Source: Lutibacter sp. A80
Lineage (GTDB): Bacteria > Bacteroidota > Bacteroidia > Flavobacteriales > Flavobacteriaceae
DNA length: 64,000 nucleotides
Assembly: GCF_022429645.1 (NCBI RefSeq)
Contig: NZ_CP092480.1
Location: 186,001 to 250,000 of the forward strand
Reading direction: 5' to 3'
The notes under the pieces were generated by a model. That model ran no database searches. It was not told the origin of the DNA and saw only the letters and a list, made by a program, of their open reading frames with translations. A program made the position numbers and the translations under genes. Positions within the stretch are counted from its first letter, which is position 1. Every line of letters begins with the position of its first letter. This document shows positions 3,222-50,605 of this stretch, in pieces.

Positions 3222-3287
3222 TTGTTTTTAAATCCTAATTATCAAATTTTAATAGATTTCTGCTTCATAGAGATGAATAGTACAAAA

Positions 3288-4411
3288 AAACCTAACAGGT
3301 TTCTAAAACCTGTTAGGTTTAATTATGTTTAATTTACTTTTTGTGATATAGTATTTATTAAAATACCTAAACTAATAAGTCTTTTTGGTGTATTTACTAT
3401 TGAACTTCTTTAGATAGAAACGTAGTATTCATATTTTTTAGACTGCTATACCGTTTACTAATTTTACAAGAATTACATTACAGAGTAAAAACCTAACAGG
3501 TTTCTAAAACCTGTTAGGTTTAATTATATCGTGTTTAATTTACTTTATGTGATGTAGTATTTATTAAAATACCTTAACTAATAAGTCTTTTTGGTGTATT
3601 TACTATTGAACTTCTTTAGATAGAAACGTAGTATTCATATTTTTTGGACTGCTTTACCGCTTAGTAATTTTACAAGAATTATATTACAGAGTAAAAACCT
3701 AACAGGTTTCTAAAACCTGTTAGGTTTAATTATGTTTAATTTACTTTTCGTGATGCAGTATTTATTAAAATACCTAAACTAATAAGTCTTTTCGGTGTAT
3801 TCACTATTAAACTTCTTTAGATATAAACGTAGTATTCATATTTTTTAGACTGCTATACCGTTTACTAATTTTACAAGAATTACATTACAGAGTAAAAACC
3901 TAACAGGTTTCTAAAACCTGTTAGGTTTAATTATATCGTGTTTAATTTACTTTATGTGATGTAGTATTTATTAAAATACCTGAACTAATAAATCTTTTCG
4001 GTGTATTTACGATTAAACTTCTTTAGATTTAAACGAAATATTCATATTTTTTGGACTGCTTTACCGCTTAGTAATTTTACAAGAATTATATTACAGAGTA
4101 AAAATCTAACAGGTTTCTAAAACCTGTTAGGTTTAATAATGTTTAATTTACTTTTCGTGATGCAGTATTTATTTAAATATCTGAACTAATAAGTCTTTTC
4201 GGTTTATTTACTATTAAACTTCTTTAGATATAAACGAAATATTTATATTTTTTGGACTGCTATATCGTTTAGTAATTTTGCAAGAATTATATTACAGAGT
4301 TAAAACCTAACATGTTTCCAAAACCTGTTAGGTTTATTTATTTAAATAAAAACGTAGTATTTATATTCTTTGGACTCCTTTTCTAATAAGTTTCCAAAAC
4401 CTGTTAGGTTT
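3288..4411. repeat. Tandem array of palindrome-containing units, alternating 201 and 206 bp
   Basis: This fills the gap between tdh and tesA. A 33-bp inverted repeat (arms AAACCTAACAGGTTT and AAACCTGTTAGGTTT) occurs at 3288-3320, 3489-3521, 3695-3727, 3896-3928, 4102-4134 and 4303-4335, with a decayed copy at about 4384-4411. The start-to-start spacings are 201, 206, 201, 206 and 201. Odd units begin AATTATGTTTAATT (AATAATG in unit 5) and even units AATTATATCGTGTTTAATT; flanking differences (TTTAGACTGCTATACC against TTTGGACTGCTTTACC) separate units 1 and 3 from 2 and 4. The array therefore grew as a two-unit block. No coding potential was seen. Confidence 0.95.
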
Positions 4412-18300: not shown

Positions 18301-19019
18301 AAAATTTAGATAAATAACAACAGATTGCCGCGTTCCATTGCATTTCACTCGCAATGACGGTTTTTATAATATCTCGTCATCCTGAATTTATTTCACGATC
18401 TTATGAAGTTAAACTAAAAATATAATTAGTATTTCATTAGGAACAGATGCTGAAACGAGTTCAGCATGACGGTTTTATTTTGATTTAGTTATTAAGTAAC
18501 AGATTGCCGCGTTCCATTGCATTTCACTCGCAATGACGGTTTAAAATCTATATTTTAACGGCATATCGAAAGTGTATCGTAAAATGTGAAGTGAAGACAT
18601 CGTAAAATTTTAGGCTGTTTGAGCCTATACAATTAAACTATTTTAAAAAAATCATAAAAGCGAGTTCCTAAAATTTAGATGTTGAGCAAAACATTTAGAT
18701 ACAGTTTCGTAAGCCTAGATTTTTTTGGTTCGTTTTTTTATCAATGAAAAAAATGAACAGAGAAAAGAAAAGAATTAAAAATACTAACGTCATTGCGGGA
18801 TGGAACGTGAAGAAAATGTTCAGTGAACATTTTTAGTGATCAGGCCAGCCGGCGCCATGGAAAAGCGACCGCGGCAATCTTTTGAATAATAGTTATAATT
18901 TTAATGAAGTTTTCAATCAACTTTGTAGTTTTTCAGAAACAACGTATGGATTCCTGCCTCCGCAGGAATGACATTTAGATATGATAAAGTTTAAAAGTAT
19001 CGTCATCCTGAATTTATTT

Positions 19020-19039
19020 AGCTCCGCTGAATCTTCGAT
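19020..19039 (-). mobile_element. AA-flanked mini-insert, short form (20 nt)
   Basis: Read on the minus strand, the insert begins ATCGAAGATTC and ends GGAGCT. It splits a stem-loop whose empty form is at 39232-39249. One AA in the empty site becomes AA on both sides of the insert. Confidence 0.45.
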
Positions 19040-19102
19040 TTCAGGATCTTATGAAGTTAAACTAAGAATATAATTAGTATTTCATTAGGAACAGATGCTG
19101 AA

Positions 19103-19151
19103 ACCATAGGTTCACGAACACTTTAATATAAAATAATAAGGAATAGTGAGT
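19103..19151 (+). mobile_element. AA-flanked mini-insert (49 nt)
   Basis: The insert begins ACCATAGGTTCACGAACAC and ends ATAGTGAGT. It lies inside the stem-loop GATGCTGAA...ACGAGTTCAGC, whose empty form is at 18446-18470. Confidence 0.45.
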
Positions 19152-19496
19152 AAACGAGTTCAGCATGACAAAGTGAAAGTACGTCATCCCGAACTCGATT
19201 CGGGATCTCATGAAACAAACTAAGAATATAATTAGTATTTCATTAGGAACAGATGCTGAAACGAGTTCAGCATGACGTAAGATACAAGCAGTTAAGATAC
19301 TGAAGCCGTAGATTCACGAACACCTTTTTATAAAATAAAACAGTAAAGTGAGTAACCGAGTTCACAATGACGGTTTTATTTTAATTTAGTTTTTAAGTAA
19401 CAGATTGCCGCGTTCCATTGCATTTCACTCGCAATGACGGTTTAAAATCTATATTTTAACGGCATATCGAAAGTTTATCGTAAAATGTGAAGTGAA

Positions 19497-19544
19497 ATCG
19501 CAGATTCACGAACACAAATAATAAAATAAAAAGGGATAGTGAGT
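19497..19544 (+). mobile_element. AA-flanked mini-insert (48 nt)
   Basis: The insert begins ATCGCAGATTCACGAACAC and ends ATAGTGAGT. It lies between GTGAAGTGAA and AAGACATCG. The same module without the insert is at about 18587-18600, reading GTGAAGTGAAGACAT. Confidence 0.5.
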
Positions 19545-19705
19545 AAGACATCGTAAAATTTTAGATAGCCTGCCTTGAGCCGAGTCGAAAGGTTTGAGCC
19601 TATACAATTAAACTATTTTAAAAAAATCATAAAGGCGAGTTCCTAAAATTTAGATGTTGAGCAAAACATTTAGATACAGTTTCGTAAGCCTAGATTTTTT
19701 TGGTT

Positions 19706-19759
19706 AGCTCACGCCTGCCTTATTATTTATTTGGAGTTCGTGAATCTCCTATCGTCGAT
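19706..19759 (-). mobile_element. AA-flanked mini-insert, long form (54 nt)
   Basis: On the minus strand it begins ATCGACGATAGGAGATTCAC and ends GCGTGAGCT. It splits GGTTCGTTTTTTTATC, which is intact at 18727-18742. Confidence 0.45.
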
Positions 19760-19850
19760 TTCGTTTTTTTATCAATGAAAAAAATGAACAGAGAAAATGA
19801 AAAAAGTTAGAATATTAAACAAAATTTAGATTACCACATAAGATCCCGAA

Positions 19851-19899
19851 ATCGAAGATTCACGAACACCTTTTTATAAAATAAAACAGTATAGTGAGT
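19851..19899 (+). mobile_element. AA-flanked mini-insert (49 nt)
   Basis: The insert begins ATCGAAGATTCACGAACACC and ends ATAGTGAGT, within GATCCCGAA...AAAGGACTTCGGGATG. The empty counterpart GATCCCGAAAGGACTTTGGG is at 40783-40802. Confidence 0.5.
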
Positions 19900-20259
19900 A
19901 AAGGACTTCGGGATGACGGTTTTATTTTGATTTAGTTATTAAGTAACAGATTGCCGCGTTCCATTGCATTTCACTCGCAATGACGAATTTAAAAACGTCC
20001 TATGAGAATTTAAGTAGCAATCTAAAGAAGTGAAGCAACGGGAGAAAGCCAAAGAGGATGGAGGGTTAAGAAAATGTTCAGTGAACATTTTTACCGAACA
20101 GGCCAGCTGGCGCTTGGAGTCTGGCGTCGACTGCGTAACTTCTGTAAGATTCAATTAAATTATCATCAGACTAGATTTTTTGTTTAGCTCACGCCTGCCT
20201 TATTATTTATTTGGAGTTCGTGAATCTCCTATCGTCGATTTCGTTTTTCATCGATGGAA

Positions 20260-20306
20260 CTGCGTAGCACATCACGAATACAAAAACAAATAAAAAGGGG
20301 ATGAGT
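20260..20306 (+). mobile_element. AA-flanked mini-insert, divergent form (47 nt)
   Basis: The insert contains ATCACGAATAC and ends GGGGATGAGT. It interrupts CGATGGAA|AAATGAAAA, which is intact at about 49820-49837. It is the most divergent member seen. Confidence 0.35.
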
Positions 20307-20547
20307 AAAAATGAAAAGAGAAAATGTTAGAATATTGAACAATTAAACAAAATTTAGATTACCACATAAGATCCCGAAATCGAAGATTCACGAACACCTT
20401 TTTATAAAATAAAACAGTATAGTGAGTAAAGGACTTCGGGATGACGGTTTTATTTTGATTTAGTTATTAAGTAACAGATTGCCACGTTCCATTGCATTTC
20501 ACTCGCAATGACGGTTTAAAAAAATTCAAAAAATACATTCAATAAAA

Positions 20548-24299: not shown

Positions 24300-25105
24300 C
24301 CATCGTCATGCTGAATCAATTCTGCCTATCGGCAAGTTCACAATAACGGTTTTTATAATATTTCGTCATGCTGAATCAATTCGGTACACAATGAAGGTTT
24401 CTATAATATTTCGTCATGCTGAACTTGATTCAGCATCTCATGAAGTAAACTAGGAGTATAATTAGTATTTCATTAGAGATAGATCCCGAAATCGAAGATT
24501 CACGAACACCTTTTTACAAAATAAAACAGTATAGTGAGTAAAGGACTTCGGGATGACGGTTTCTATAATATTTCGTCATGCTGAACTTGATTCAGCATCT
24601 CATGAAGTAAACTAGGAGAATAATTAGTATTTCATTAGAGATAGATTCCGAAATCGAAGATTCACGAACACCTTTTTATAAAATAAAACAATATAGTGAG
24701 TAAACGAGTTCAGCATGACGGTTTTATTTTGATTTAGGTTTTAAGTAACAGATTGCCGCGTTCCATTGCATTTCACTCGCAATGACGAATTTAAAAACGT
24801 CCTATGAGAATTTAAGTAGCAATCTGAAGAAGTGAAGCAAAGGAAGTAAGCCAAAAAGCGTAGCGGTCTGGCGTCGACTGCGGAACTTCTGTAAGATTCA
24901 ATTAAATTATCATCAGACTAGATTTTTTTGGTTCGTTTTTTTATCAATGAAAAAAATGAACAGAGAAAATGAACAGAGCAAATGAAAAAAGTTAGAATAT
25001 TAAACAAAATTTAGATTACCACATGAGATCCCGAAATCGAAGATTCACGAACACCTTTTATAAAATAAAACAATATAGTGAGTAATCAAGTTCGCAATAA
25101 CGGTC
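24300..25105. repeat. Mosaic repeat block 3
   Basis: A non-coding block separating the GDP-fucose cassette from the rest of the locus. It contains several GTCATGCTGAA stem-loops, three with an AA-flanked mini-insert (for example near 24492-24540), the CAGATTGCCGCGTTCC module at about 24750, and a long module at about 24796-24930 in its short form (AAAGCGTAGCGGTCTGGC). A run of CCAAAAACCAACAA-like purine/C-rich repeats (about 25105-25160) ends next to the following gene. Confidence 0.9.
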
Positions 25106-39199: not shown

Positions 39200-40993
39200 C
39201 CGCAATGACGGTTTTTATAACATCTCGTCATCCTGAATTTATTTCAGGATCTCATGAACTTAACTAGGTGATGATTGAGGTTTCTAGATACAGATTGCCG
39301 CGTTCCATTGTATTTCACTCGCAATGACGGTTTTTATAATATCTCGTCATCCCGAACTCGATTCGGGATCTCATGAAACAAACTAAGAATATAATTAGTA
39401 TTTCATTAGGAACAGATGCTGAATCAAGTTCAGCATGACGTATGACGTACGATACAAGCAGTTAAGATGCTGAAACCGTAGGTTCACAAACACTAATAAT
39501 AAAATAAAAAAGGATAGTGAGTAATCAAGTTCAGCATGACAAAGTGAAAGAACGTCATCCCGAACTCGATTCGGGATCTCATGAAACAAACTAAGAGTAT
39601 AATTAGTATTTCATTAGAGACAGATGCTGAATCAAGTTCAGCATGACGTATGACGTACGATACAAGCAGTTAAGATGCTGAAACCATAGGTTCACGAACA
39701 CCAATAATAAAATAAAAAAGAATAGTGAGTAAACGAGTTCAGCATGATGGTTTTATTTTGATTTAGTTTTTAAGTAACAGATTGCCGCGTTCCATTGTAT
39801 TTCACTCGCAATGACGGTTTTTATAATATCTCGTCATCCCGAACTCGATTCGGGATCTCATGAAACAAACTAAGAATATAATTAGTATTTCATTAGGAAC
39901 AGATGCTGAAACCATAGGTTCACGAACTCCAATAATAAAATAAAAAGAAATAGTGAGTAATCAAGTTCAGCATGACGTATGACGTACGATACAAGCAGTT
40001 AAGATGCTGAAACCATAGGTTCACGAACACTAATAATAAAATAAAAAAGGATAGTGAGTAATCAAGTTCAGCATGACAAAGTGAAAGAACGTCATCCCGA
40101 ACTCGATTCGGGATCTCATGAAACAAACTAAGAGTATAATTAGTATTTCATTAGGAACAGATGCTGAATCAAGTTCAGCATGACGTATGACGTACGATAC
40201 AAGCAGTTAAGATGCTGAAACCGTAGGTTCACGAACACCAATAATAAAATAAAAAGGAATAGTGAGTAAACGAGTTCAGCATGACAAAGTGAAAGAACGT
40301 CATCCCGAACTCGATTCGGGATCTCATGAAATTAAACTAAGAATATAATTAGTATTTCATTAGGAACAGATGCTGAATCAAGTTCAGCATGACGTACGAT
40401 ATAAGCAGTTAAGATGCTGAAACCATAGGTTCACGAACACTTTAATATAAAATAAAAAGGAATAGTGAGTAATCAAATTCAGCATGACGGCTTTATTTTG
40501 ATTTAGTTTTTAAGTAACAGATTGCCGCGTTCCATTGCATTTCACTCGCAATGACGAATTGAAAAACGTCCTATGAGAATTTAAGTAGCAATCTGAGGAA
40601 GTGAAGCAACGGGAGAAAGCCAAAAAGCGTAGCGGTCTGGCGTCGACTGCGTAACTTCCGTAAGATTCAATTAAATTATCATCAGACTAGATTTTTTTGG
40701 TTCGTTTTTTTATCAATGAAAAAAATGAACAGAGAAAATGAAAAAAGTTAGAATATTAAACAAAATTTAGATTACCACATAAGATCCCGAAAGGACTTTG
40801 GGATGACGGTTTTATTTTGATTTAGTTTTTAAGTAACAGATTGCCGCGTTCCATTGCATTTCACTCGCAATGACGGTTTTTATAACATCTCGTCATCCTG
40901 AATTTATTTAGCTCCGCTGAATCTTCGATTTCAGGATCTCATGAAACAAACTAAGAGTTTAATTAGTATTTCATTAGGAACAGATGCTCATGA
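39200..40993. repeat. Mosaic repeat block 4
   Basis: A 1.8-kb non-coding block between the biosynthetic and export parts of the locus. It is built from near-identical runs of about 250-350 bp made of a CATCCCGAACTCGATTCGGG stem-loop, the spacer CTAAGAATATAATTAGTATT, a GATGCTGAA stem-loop without an insert, TATGACGTACGATACAAGCA, and a GATGCTGAA stem-loop with an insert. The run recurs around 39340, 39550, 39835, 40090 and 40300. A long module in short form lies at about 40564-40700. Small frames here (39395-39589, 39920-40126) repeat because the DNA repeats, not because they are genes. Confidence 0.9.
39475..39522 (+). mobile_element. AA-flanked mini-insert (48 nt)
   Basis: It begins ACCGTAGGTTCACAAACAC and ends GATAGTGAGT inside GATGCTGAA...AATCAAGTTCAGC. 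The empty site GATGCTGAATCAAGTTCAGC lies just upstream at 39415-39434, so occupied and empty forms are neighbours. Confidence 0.5.
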
Positions 40994-45654: not shown

Positions 45655-45700
45655 AGGTATTGCTGTATTCTTATTTTATGATAAGAGTAAATTATATATA

Positions 45701-45727
45701 AAACCAAGCATTCGCTTGGTTTTTTTT
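45701..45727 (+). terminator. Rho-independent terminator of the export operon
   Basis: Arms AACCAAGC/GCTTGGTT around ATTC are followed by eight T in total. It lies 47 bp after the Wzi-like stop and ends the locus before the next repeat block. Confidence 0.88.
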
Positions 45728-45754
45728 ATGAGTTTTTACCATCTTTTAAAAATG

Positions 45755-47640
45755 TGCGGGATTACGAATTTAAAAACGTGCTATGAGGATTTAAGTAGCA
45801 ATCTAAGGAAGTGAAGCAGAATGAGTAAGCCAAAGAGGATGGAGGGTTAAGAAAATGTTCAGTGAAAATTTTTACCGAACAGGCCAGCTGGCGCTTGGAG
45901 TCTGGCGTCGATTGCGTAACTTCTGTAAGATTCAATTAAATTATCATCAGACTAGATTTTTTGGTTCGTTTTTCATCAATGGAAAAATGAACAAGTGAAA
46001 TGAAATTTTAATCATCATTTAGTTAAATTCAAGAGATTGCCGCGGTCGTACCTTCCTCGCAATGACGGAATTCATTATAACTCGTCATTACTGGATGACG
46101 AATTTAAAACGTCCTATGAGAATTTAAGTAGCAATCTAAGGAAGTGAAGCAAAGGAAGTAAGCCAAAGAGCGCAGCGGTCTGGCGTCGACTGCGTAACTT
46201 CCGTAAGATTCAATTAAATTATCATCAGACTAGATTTTTTTGTTTCGTTTTTTCATCGATGGAAAAAATGAAAAATAAGGTAAAATAAAAAAAATGTTTA
46301 AGTATTTCCACTAACATCATAAGATCCCGAAATCGAAGATTCAGCGGAGCTAATCGAGTTCGGGATGACGTTACTTTAAACCCGTCATTGCGAAGGCGTG
46401 TTGTAATGCAATGAAAACACAACTGCGGCAATCTGTTGCTTAAAAAACTAAATCAAAATAAAACCGTCATGCTGAATTTAGTTACTCACTATTTCTTTTT
46501 ATTTTATTAAAGTGTTCGTGAACCTATGGTTTCAGCATTTGTTTGTAGCGTACGTCATGCTGAACTTGATTCAGCATCTGCCACTAAAGAAATCAAATCA
46601 CCCGTTCATTTTTCCATCGATGAAAAAATGAAACAAAAAAATCTAGGCTTACGAAACTTTACCTAAATATTTTGCTCAACATCTAAATTTTAGGAACTCG
46701 CCTTTAAAAATTTAGTAAATTGTATAATTGGTTTGGCTCAAACCTTTCGACTCGGCTCAAGGCAGGCTATCTAAAATTTTACGATGTCTTACTCACTATC
46801 CCTTTTTATTTTATTATTTGTGTTCGTGAATCTGCGATTTCACTTCATATTTAACGATACACCTTCGATATGCCGGGTTAAACTTTATTCCGTTATTACA
46901 ATTGTTATTGACTTTTTAAATTTTATCATAATTCAAAATATAGATGTCATTCCTGCGGAGGCAGGAATCCATACTCAGCTTCTGAAAAATTAATAGGTTT
47001 ATAAATTAAAAATGTTATTTTATTATTGTGTTCGTGAACCTATGGTTTCAGCATCTTTTTCTAATGAAATCAAATCATTTGTTTATTTGTTCATTTTTTC
47101 ATTGATAAAAAACGAACCAAAAAATCTAGGCTTACGAAACTGTATCTAAATATTTTGCTCAACATCTAAATTTTAGGAACTCGCCTTTAAAAATTTAGTA
47201 AGCTAGTATAATTGGTTTGGCTCAAACAGCCTAAAATTTTACGATGTTTTCACTTCATATTTTACGATACACCTTCGATATGCCGGGTTAAACTTTATTC
47301 CGTTATTACAATTGTTATTGACTTTTTAAGTTTTATCATAATTCAAAATATAGATGTCATTCCTGCGGAGGCAGGAATCCATACTCAGCTTCTGAAAAAT
47401 TAACAGGTTTATAAATTAAAAATGTTATTTTATTAAGGTGTTCGTGAATCTGCGGTTTCAGCATCTGCTTCTACCGTACGTCATGCTGAACTCGTTTCAG
47501 CATCTGTCCCTAAAGAACCTCAATCATCATTTAGTTAACATCATGAGATCCTGAATCAAGTTCAGGATGATGGACACAGCTAAGCAAATTCGGGATGACG
47601 GACAGAAGTAAAAGAACCTCGGGATGACGGTTGCCAATAG
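45755..47640. repeat. Mosaic repeat block 5
   Basis: A non-coding block following the export operon. It has long modules at about 45776-45962 (long form with AAAATGTTCAGTG) and 46099-46240 (short form). It also holds two copies of the CATCGTAAAATTTTAG...GCCTAGATTTTTT module in reverse orientation relative to block 2 (about 46635-46790 and 47110-47250). Each is followed by GATACACCTTCGATATGCCG and a GTCATTCCTGCGGAGGCAGG stem-loop. Short frames at 46225-46431, 46784-46993 and 47212-47403 are products of the repeats. Confidence 0.88.
46332..46351 (+). mobile_element. AA-flanked mini-insert, short form (20 nt)
   Basis: The insert ATCGAAGATTCAGCGGAGCT lies in GATCCCGAA|AATCGAGTTCGGGATG, a stem-loop whose empty type reads GATCCCGAATCGAGTTC. 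The same form recurs near 49895. Confidence 0.45.
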
Positions 47641-48799: not shown

Positions 48800-50605
48800 T
48801 GTTTGTACTCACCGTCATGCTGAACTAGTTTACTCACTATTCCTTTTTATTTTATTATTAGTGTTCATGAACCTACGGTTTCAGCATCTTTTTCTAATGA
48901 AATCAAATCATTTGTTTATTTGTTCATTTTTTCATTGATAAAAAACGAACCAAAAAATCTAGGCTTACGAAACTGTATCTAAATATTTTGCTCAACATCT
49001 AAATTTTAGGAACTCGCCTTTAAAAATTAAGTAAGCGAGTATAATCGGTTTGGCTCAAACCTTTCGACTCGGCTCAAGGCAGGCTATCTAAAATTTTACG
49101 ATGTCTTACTCACTATCCCTTTTTATTTTATTATTTGTGTTCGTGAATCTGCGATTTCACTTCATATTTTACGATACACCTTCGATATGCCGGGTTAAAC
49201 TTTATTCCGTTATTACAATTGTTATTGACTTTTTAAATTTTATCATAATTCAAAATATAGATGTCATTCCTGCCTTTCGACTCCGCTCAAGATAAATTCC
49301 GGCAGGAATCCATACTCAGCTTCTGAAAAATTAACAGGTTTATAAATTAAAAATGTTATTTTATTATGGTGTTAGTGTACATACGGTTTCAGCATTTGTT
49401 TGTAACGTACGTCATGCTGAATTTTTTTCAGCATCTGCTTCAATCAAACTAAAATCATGTTCCTAGTTAATATCATAAGATCCCGAACCAAGTTCGGGAT
49501 GACGGACATAGCTAATCAAGTTCGGGATGACGTTACTTAAAATCCGTCATTGCGAGGGCGTGTTGTAATGCAATGAAAACACAACTGCGGCAATCTGTAT
49601 CTAGAAACCTCAATCATCATCTAGTTAAGTTCATGAGATCCTGAATCAAGTTCAGGATGACGAATTTAAAACGTCCTATGAGAATTTAAGTAGTAATCTA
49701 AGGAAGTGAAGCAGAATGAGTAAGCCAAAAAGCGTAGCGGTCTGGCGTCGACTGCGTAACTTCCGTAAGATTCAATTAAATTATCATCAGACTAGATTTT
49801 TTTGTTTCGTTTTTTCATCGATGGAAAAAATGAAAAATAAGGTAAAATAAAAAAAATGTTTAAGTATTTCCACTAACATCATAAGATCCCGAAATCGAAG
49901 ATTCAGCGGAGCTAATCAAGTTCGGGATGACGTTACTTTAAAACCCGTCATTGCGAAGGCGTGTTGTAATGCAATGAAAACACAACTGCGGCAATCTGCC
50001 ACTAAAGAACCCCAATCATCATCTAGTTAATTTCAAGAGATTGCCGCGGTCGTACCTTCCTCGCAATGACGGAATTCATTATAGCTCGTCATTACTGGAT
50101 GACGAATTTAAAAACGTCCTATGAGAATTTAAGTAGCAATCTAAGGAAGTGAAGCAGAATGAGTAAGCCAAAGAGGATGGAGGGTTAAGAAAATGTTCAG
50201 TGAACACTTTTACCGAACAGGCCAGCTGGCGCTTGGAGTCTGGCGTCGACTGCTGAGCTTCCGTAAGATTCAATTAAATTATCATCAGACTAGATTTTTT
50301 TGTTTAGCTCACGCCTGCCTTATTATTTATTTAGAGTTCGTGAATCTCCTATTGTCGATTTCGTTTTTCATCGATGGAACTGCGTAGCGCATCACGAATA
50401 CAAAAACAAATAATAATGGGATGAGTAAAAATGAACAAGTGAAATGAAATTCTAATCATCATCTAGTTAAGTTCATGAGATCCCGAATCGAGTTCAGGAT
50501 GGCGGACACAGCTAAACAAGTTCGGGATGACGTTACTTAAAACCCGTCATTGCGAAGGCGTGTTGTAATGCAATGAAAACACAACTGCGGCAATCTGTTA
50601 CTTAA
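48800..50605. repeat. Mosaic repeat block 6
   Basis: A non-coding block of the same modules between the HU-related gene and the uptake locus. A reverse-oriented CATCGTAAAATTTTAG module lies at about 48950-49105. At about 49272-49305 a GTCATTCCTGC stem-loop has its loop replaced by CTTTCGACTCCGCTCAAG and more. Long modules lie at about 49670-49803 (short form) and 50113-50303 (long form), and GTCATTGCGAGGGCGTGTTG-type elements occur at about 49548, 49947 and 50545. The frames at 49101, 50079 and 50193 come from repeats. Confidence 0.88.

Follow-up and report, generated by a model that had tools for sequence, protein, structure and literature searches.

Short hairpin-bearing inserts at (G/C)AA sites form a family of minimal, apparently mobile elements found mostly in Bacteroidota

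Introduction

In a stretch of 64,000 nucleotides (nt) of the single-contig 3.93 Mb genome of Lutibacter sp. A80 (NZ_CP092480.1, positions 186001-250000; hereafter the window), short inserts split several unrelated repeat families at the same kind of site, and occupied and empty forms of these repeats can be compared with each other. What are these inserts, and how did they come to lie in so many different sequences? A first-pass annotation of the window had listed six occupied/empty pairs, had read from them an insertion exactly at AA and fixed insert ends without terminal inverted repeats, and had named no described element of this kind. Here we compare the inserts within the window and with related inserts in other genomes. 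We conclude that they are one family of minimal, directional, non-autonomous mobile elements present at many unrelated sites, mostly in Bacteroidota.

Results

All six pairs held letter by letter: an empty GAA/X becomes GAA-[insert ending TAA]-X. The six listed inserts are real; the list itself was incomplete, as the window holds 29 inserts, namely 23 of 49-56 nt (the terminal AA being counted in the insert), four short forms of 22 nt and two without the right end (Table 1). A pattern search of the window found 28 of them (20 full, 2 divergent, 4 short 22-nt and 2 with the right end lost); the 29th, at about 19305-19355, has a decayed hairpin arm, lies outside the pattern and was seen in other scans. 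The sequence GATTCACGAAC with at most one mismatch occurs 23 times in the window versus 0.57 expected, two of the 23 (5247, 48495) being unrelated, and TTCACGAAC-N10-35-GTGAG occurs 19 times versus 0.00 in 100 shuffles. Three features were absent from the earlier list: a 5' hairpin (AATC-GAA-GATT, AACC-ATA-GGTT), an effect on start codons, and spread through duplication of composite repeats. Duplication of host repeats multiplied many of the window inserts, which are therefore not independent insertions; the flanks of 19851-19901 and 20379-20429, for instance, are identical.

Insertion exactly at AA, usually (G/C)AA, was found again in other genomes: a Lutibacter locus, CRISPR and CRISPR-like repeats, a maturase gene and gene starts all agree with it. 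In one array (L188) the first repeat on the contig is occupied and 20 exact empty copies of the 36-nt repeat GTTGTGTTTACCCTTCAA/AATAAGGGCAGTTACAAC adjoin it, and in a second (L189) the insert occupies an edge repeat whose left half is degenerate, next to 11 exact empty repeats; both are named CRISPR-like by their repeat-spacer pattern, and cas genes were not looked for there. In a CRISPR array beside a Cas13b gene identified by PADLOC (L272:11633-14200 and L273), 17 of 26 repeats are occupied and 9 are empty. The occupied repeats are split at CTTCAA/A and the spacers are still 29-30 nt long. In this array the average divergence is 12.5% between inserts and 4.4-4.8% between aligned repeat halves; therefore, the inserts diverged more freely or several of them entered separately.

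At a two-gene locus of Lutibacter, 13 of the 30 loci fetched could be anchored, 8 of them in readable orientation. Beside the same two genes, L222, L223, L224 and L226 are occupied, L228 and L249 carry an empty hairpin resembling a repetitive extragenic palindrome (REP), and L225 and L231 are REP-free. Comparison of L226 with L228 places the insert at GCTGAA/, and the two loci differ further by another palindrome, present in L226, and by one base next to the junction; the core of the L226 insert is changed to GATTAATGAACACC...GTGAATAA. In L223, L224, L226 and L135 the same REP loops enclose a second small palindromic insert (CCTGCC...GGCAGG type), which lies on the downstream side of ACAAG/ACGAG. 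In Flavobacterium UBA6135 the gene of a group II intron maturase (L081; RVT_1 and GIIM) contains one insert, and a stretch of the same genome with the same left flank (L098) carries this insert and a second one, the site of which is empty in L081 (GCTCAA/AGTCCC). CGTC-type hairpins are a frequent host site of the inserts. At the 36-nt CRISPR repeats and the conserved gene starts, where the ancestral state is readable, it is the empty form that came first, which rules out a deletion artefact at these places; scattered deletions, named in the first-pass annotation as a finding that would refute insertion, were thus not borne out there.

The target was defined on 77 elements with distinct flanks among 185 hairpin-bearing elements. 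The base preceding AA is G or C in 64 of the 77, the first A of AA is present in 73 (the second A was a selection condition), and the first base 3' of the element is A or T, likewise in 73. If the element is taken as AT...TAA, no base is lost or gained between the rejoined flanks wherever the empty site is known. The junction shows no target duplication; a 2-bp AA duplication would look the same. Copies within a genome are few and have unlike spacers.

Each element consists of a 5' hairpin, a CACGAAC(A/T)C core, an A-rich spacer and a GTGAG(C/T)TAA end, and the orientation is fixed. The fixed ends noted in the window were borne out across genomes, with variants (CACGAATAC, CATGAATACC...CATGAATA, GATGAGTAA). 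The core TTCACGAAC and the end GTGAG served as search keys in all collections, hence their constancy in our alignment of 44 elements is partly by construction; the hairpin was no key. The same alignment shows unlike ends, AT.. on the left and ..TAA on the right, in agreement with the absence of terminal inverted repeats noted before. Among 77 nonredundant hairpin-bearing elements the length is 43-65 nt, a range limited by search patterns that capped the spacer at about 36 nt. The spacer is 79% A+T, and the 3' arm of the hairpin ends in ATT preceding CACGAAC.

It is well supported that the arms of the 5' hairpin covary. We drew 114 distinct-flank elements from 202 with the hairpin ignored, dropping rows less than 45 bases from the left or less than 25 from the right locus end; this set keeps chance matches, some from IMG/VR among them. 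Perfect pairing in an 11- or 13-nt register was found in 64 of the 114, versus 22.3 on average and 35 at most when 5' arms were swapped (2000 trials), and a stem of at least 4 bp, with any loop size within the 45 bases read, in 94. There are 23 different stems, e.g. AATC/GATT, AACC/GGTT, AATGC/GCATT, AATAC/GTATT, AATGT/ACATT and AATCCATTTGCT/AGCAAATGGATT, the rarest of which may be due to chance. Three-nt loops read GNA in 33 of 45 cases, and one A at the foot of the stem comes from the target (or, in a joined circle, from the element's own TAA). A second helix, TCACG/CGTGA, is weakly suggested: a C directly before GTGAG, which would extend the pairing, is present in 44 of the 114 elements versus 12.8% C in the spacer, and the helix was seen in the fold of one copy. 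As TCAC and GTGA were search keys, only rare variants bear on its covariation: in four loci (L117, L157, L085, L156) CATGAATACC...CATGAATA or near forms replace CACGAACACC...GTGAGTAA, which gives one hint of covariation in this helix. Rfam covariance models gave no match at E 0.1 in 20 loci, and by this absence a structured RNA of known type was ruled out. A match to AbsR28 at window positions 45694-45742 lies far under the gathering score (E 0.18) and is probably due to chance.

The inserts also lie at the starts of genes. Among the 185 elements, a count in which window copies are not included, 22 directly follow ATGAA, and in these the element's GTG opens a frame of 50 codons or more. Because the element ends GTGAGTAA, the following A completes GTG AGT AAA at any element length. 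The length is divisible by three in 19 of these 22 (two with an internal stop) versus 24 of 61 other loci; L023 and L093 represent the same place and L129 a similar one, thus independent events are fewer than 22. The three elements of other lengths precede a short-chain dehydrogenase (L123, Pfam), a phosphoesterase-like frame (L162, by eye) and nif3 (L177, Pfam), and as judged from the reading frames these genes would depend on the element's GTG for their start. A cytidylate kinase gene (cmk, Pfam; L114) has the same start arrangement with a decayed hairpin and stands outside the 22. In relatives, 18 cmk loci (17 of them readable) and 20 nif3 loci were compared; none of those readable has an insert within 30 bases upstream of the aligned start, and many of these homologues start at the matching Lys codon, e.g. 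ATG AAA ATT AAA GAT or TTG AAA AAT ATT.

These gene starts, with the lengths divisible by three, are what could favour a conserved regulatory or coding site that arose repeatedly, such as an N-terminal peptide MKSxIHEH..VSK. We consider this highly improbable, since two frames are used (IHEH, FTN), two of the 19 elements contain a stop, most copies lie away from the starts of genes, and CRISPR repeats and REPs are split by this DNA too.

At the other end of genes, six loci encode an upstream tail peptide EEIxIxE (L026, L095, L109, L110, L136, L170), to which L088 (no Pfam family) can be added. The frames of L026, L110 and L170 are Eco57I/type IIG, and no long frame is listed for L109 and L136. 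In all seven the C-terminal codons of the gene, together with the stop, lie within the loop of the element's hairpin, and 3' of GTGAGTAA the tail is found once more in a diverged form; as far as the sequences tell, this tail duplication is not explained by simple insertion.

The genome of Lutibacter sp. A80 contains 25 strict-pattern copies, 16 in the window and 9 at 3.567-3.614 Mb, and one further, weaker REP-plus-insert match at 2.75 Mb. At least one match was found in 35 of 149 genomes of the same order, our own included, and the pattern read backwards matched once; with a stricter pattern, 8 of 296 genomes in a sample of the phylum were positive, again including our own. A scan of a genome collection yielded at least 120 stretches with related inserts. 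Among the matches listed, 72 of 80 titles belong to Bacteroidota, as assigned by reading the titles. The other eight, mostly metagenome-assembled genomes (MAGs), are an uncultured bacterium (L077), two Ignavibacteria (L082, L124), Desulfobacteraceae (L086), Candidatus Parvibacillus (L095), BMS3Abin15 (L100), Neomarinimicrobiota (L115) and Oceanicaulis (L139). Mis-binning is possible for L086, L100 and L115 because they share a flank type with the Lutibacter MAG L108. In the 24 genomes reached via fetched loci the copy number is 1-4, with a single exception: one genome has 15, which all lie on the same contig within a CRISPR array. Plasmid and phage records gave no match to the inserts queried, the window copy being queried on plasmids only. 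IMG/VR gave 9 matches: hairpin arms are present in L213 and L220, L217 is cut by the contig end, and the other six are without arms.

The two clusters in the Lutibacter sp. A80 genome, several of their copies with repeated flanks, and a Lutibacter relative in which tandem 240-bp units carry the insert, could suggest that there is no current transposition and that spread occurs only by duplication, gene conversion or horizontal transfer of larger insert-bearing repeats. This accounts well for many copies inside the window. Nevertheless, it leaves unexplained the 77-114 distinct flanks, the few copies with unlike spacers in each genome, and the edge repeat of an array that bears one insert beside 20 identical empty repeats, and as a general explanation we consider it very unlikely.

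Within the window, several of the ten genes tested around the insert islands function in polysaccharide or capsule synthesis and export. The two divergent inserts form a subfamily (CACGAATAC and GATGAGTAA) and each lies across a palindrome from a normal copy. All four 22-nt short forms share one REP position; the short form looks like an internal deletion with both ends kept. Furthermore, positions 3286-4341 contain a tandem array of about 5 copies of a 201-bp unit, which includes the palindrome CCTAACAGGTTT.

Table 1. Inserts in the window, with positions counted from its first letter.
Position	Strand	Description	Basis
19018..19039	-	22-nt short form ATCGAAGATTCAGCGGAGCTAA in REP loop	pattern
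19103..19153	+	full, in CGTC-type REP loop; hairpin AACC-ATA-GGTT; empty form 18446	pair comparison + pattern
19305..19355	+	hairpin arm decayed; GAA then GCCGTAGATT...	start read by eye
19497..19546	+	full, in GTGAAGTGAA/GACATC repeat; empty form 18587-18600	pair comparison + pattern
19704..19759	-	full, GTGAGCTAA end, in GGTTCGTTTTTT repeat; empty form ~18727	pair comparison + pattern
19851..19901	+	full, in REP loop; empty form 40783	pair comparison + pattern
20184..20239	-	full, one side of TTTTCATCGATGGAA palindrome	pattern
20260..20308	+	divergent, CACGAATAC...GATGAGTAA, opposite side of TTTTCATCGATGGAA palindrome; hairpin TGCG-TAG-CGCA; empty form ~49817	pair comparison + pattern
20379..20429	+	full, duplicate of 19851-19901 including flanks	pattern
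24491..24541	+	full	pattern
24653..24703	+	full	pattern
25036..25085	+	full	pattern
39475..39524	+	full; empty form 39415	pair comparison + pattern
39683..39732	+	full	pattern
39911..39960	+	full	pattern
40012..40061	+	full	pattern
40220..40269	+	full	pattern
40422..40472	+	full	pattern
40908..40929	-	22-nt short form	pattern
46332..46353	+	22-nt short form	pattern
46482..46530	-	full	pattern
46789..46838	-	full	pattern
47008..47046	-	right end lost; given end arbitrary	pattern
47418..47456	-	right end lost; given end arbitrary	pattern
48830..48879	-	full	pattern
49106..49155	-	full	pattern
49894..49915	+	22-nt short form	pattern
50304..50359	-	full, GTGAGCTAA end	pattern
50380..50428	+	divergent; hairpin TGCG-TAG-CGCA	pair comparison + pattern

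Discussion

How could an element of this size move? The explanation that best covers the whole, and which we hold with a little less than even confidence, is that of a minimal non-autonomous mobile family moved in trans as a folded single strand. We prefer mobilisation as single-stranded DNA because pairing is kept while the letters change, the loop is mostly GNA and the foot of the hairpin uses an A of the target. The left cleavage point would be marked by the hairpin, whose loop is usually GNA and whose foot takes in the target AA, and the right one by the GTGAGTAA end. A recombinase supplied in trans, perhaps HUH/RAYT-like, would then join the ends into a new (G/C)AA site, and the GTGAGTAA end would make landings at ATGAA/A survivable through the in-frame GTG AGT AAA. 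A head-to-tail pair of elements in L281 (GTGAGCTAA/ATCG...) fits insertion at an element's own end.

Any mobilising enzyme would act in trans, since no longer version was found among the places with hairpin and core in 38 Lutibacter genomes: in all of these, apart from the two truncated window copies, the right end or a sequence close to it follows no more than about 40 nt away. A long version with a gene in the hairpin loop was not found via the guide complement up to 6 kb upstream, nor was one found via the core without the right end in 1.09 Mb of loci or in the 38 Lutibacter genomes (20 stretches read). Eight core matches without the right end in these stretches are also without a hairpin and look like coding sequence. 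The ends of L286 read GTGCGTAA and GTGAGTAC. Among the neighbouring genes of 129 loci, none of the 25 families examined looked like a transposase common to many loci; chance rates were not computed. The largest families there were an RND (resistance-nodulation-division) efflux pump (10 loci), which we take to be CusA-like, a type I methylase (8, PADLOC) and a further family (7), presumably CusB-like.

Several results weigh against movement as a folded strand by such an enzyme. One window copy folds no better than shuffled sequences (z -0.47), whereas the copy in L094 does (z -2.57). Hairpin apices are not enriched among the targets (12 of 76 versus 254 of 1520 control (G/C)AA/W sites), although folds of the joined flanks are slightly more stable than those of controls (mean -4.3 versus -3.6 kcal/mol). 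The searched part of the Lutibacter sp. A80 genome gave no Y1_Tnp match. Of 24 other genomes with the element, 5 lack Y1_Tnp as well, among them the genome whose CRISPR array holds 15 copies, and the core motif was absent from twenty Y1 loci of relatives. Movement of the IS200/IS605 type usually favours the lagging strand; no bias for a replication strand was seen with GC skew, a noisy proxy, which was positive on the strand of the element in 26 of 61 loci.

By its junction the insert is closest to IS200/IS605 elements, which are described as inserting 3' of a short motif without target duplication, lacking terminal inverted repeats and having an end hairpin (PMC7290912). The inserts could thus be a non-autonomous IS200/IS605 derivative, like the palindrome-associated transposable elements (PATEs), or a repeat moved by a REP-associated tyrosine transposase (RAYT, TnpA-REP). 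Guide-type pairing is described in PMC8266576. Y1_Tnp is present in the remaining 19 of the 24 other element-bearing genomes and, within Lutibacter, in 14 of 21 genomes with the element versus 6 of 16 without it (one more was not scored), an excess that is only suggestive. Still, the inserts differ from these elements in their size of about 50 nt, with one clear strong hairpin, no GTAG tag and no strand bias by local GC skew, and no full-length relative carrying TnpA with these ends was found in the loci and the 38 Lutibacter genomes. With the Y1_Tnp and core results above, we regard this derivation as possible and rather doubtful.

By behaviour, the closest known elements, beside the double-hairpin elements of fungi, are the GC clusters of yeast mitochondria, units of tens of nt with a hairpin and a short flanking repeat that differ by presence and absence; the likeness is not one of sequence. 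The 42-nt clusters (GC42) form hairpins, are flanked by AG or ACT repeats and are suspected to spread through RNA (PMC4478555). In contrast to these mitochondrial, GC-rich palindromes, the inserts are bacterial, AT-rich and directional, use a (G/C)AA target and have ends common across a phylum. The main alternative to single-stranded DNA is spread of an RNA copy inserted by a reverse transcriptase, e.g. a group II intron enzyme, and the insert in the maturase gene L081 and the two in the same-left-flank stretch L098 could be taken to point that way. Coding strands show no bias (of 61 loci outside gene starts, 34 have the larger share of coding sequence on the strand of the element), and GNA loops suit folded DNA, the DNA mini-hairpin GCGAAGC being a stable one. 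We therefore judge the RNA route unlikely.

The absence of any described element of this kind, as stated in the first-pass annotation, was upheld by comparison with REPs, Rfam families and miniature inverted-repeat transposable elements (MITEs); the comparison with IS200/IS605 gave mixed results. CGTC repeats are reported in Bacteroidetes (PMC3733652), and REP/RAYT systems also consist of small palindromic repeats, but the insert has no GTAG or CGTC tag at its ends and sits inside REP loops, so it is no REP. MITEs, also short, non-coding and mobile, are 70-300 bp long with terminal inverted repeats of 15-30 bp (PMC3733652), and the inserts have neither this length nor such repeats. Rickettsia palindromic elements (RPEs) are likewise small and inserted in frame into genes (PMC3733652). 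Unlike RPEs, the inserts found in genes here lie mostly at start codons and bring a new start. Moreover, RPEs are larger and palindromic as a whole. The insert ends are, by eye, unlike the attC boxes R''/R' of integrons (GTTRRRY...RYYYAAC), on which an integrase acts; no integrase search was made. A literature search with the core letters returned nothing related by title, most subscription journals being outside the search.

Taken further, and as a proposal that falls somewhat short of an even chance, this would be a phylum-wide class of mobile DNA that, at about 45-55 nt and at 22 nt in a derivative, comes near the minimum size and travels as a DNA hairpin through an enzyme still to be connected with it. 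Its ends would be adapted to harmless landing, with a new GTG at ATGAA/A and CRISPR repeats that stay in register with 29-30-nt spacers. If this is true, the inserts rank among the smallest mobile DNA units of bacteria and correspond there to the GC clusters of mitochondria. They change N-termini and start codons of conserved genes (cmk, nif3) and split CRISPR repeats, and the exact empty/occupied pairs make the mechanism directly testable.

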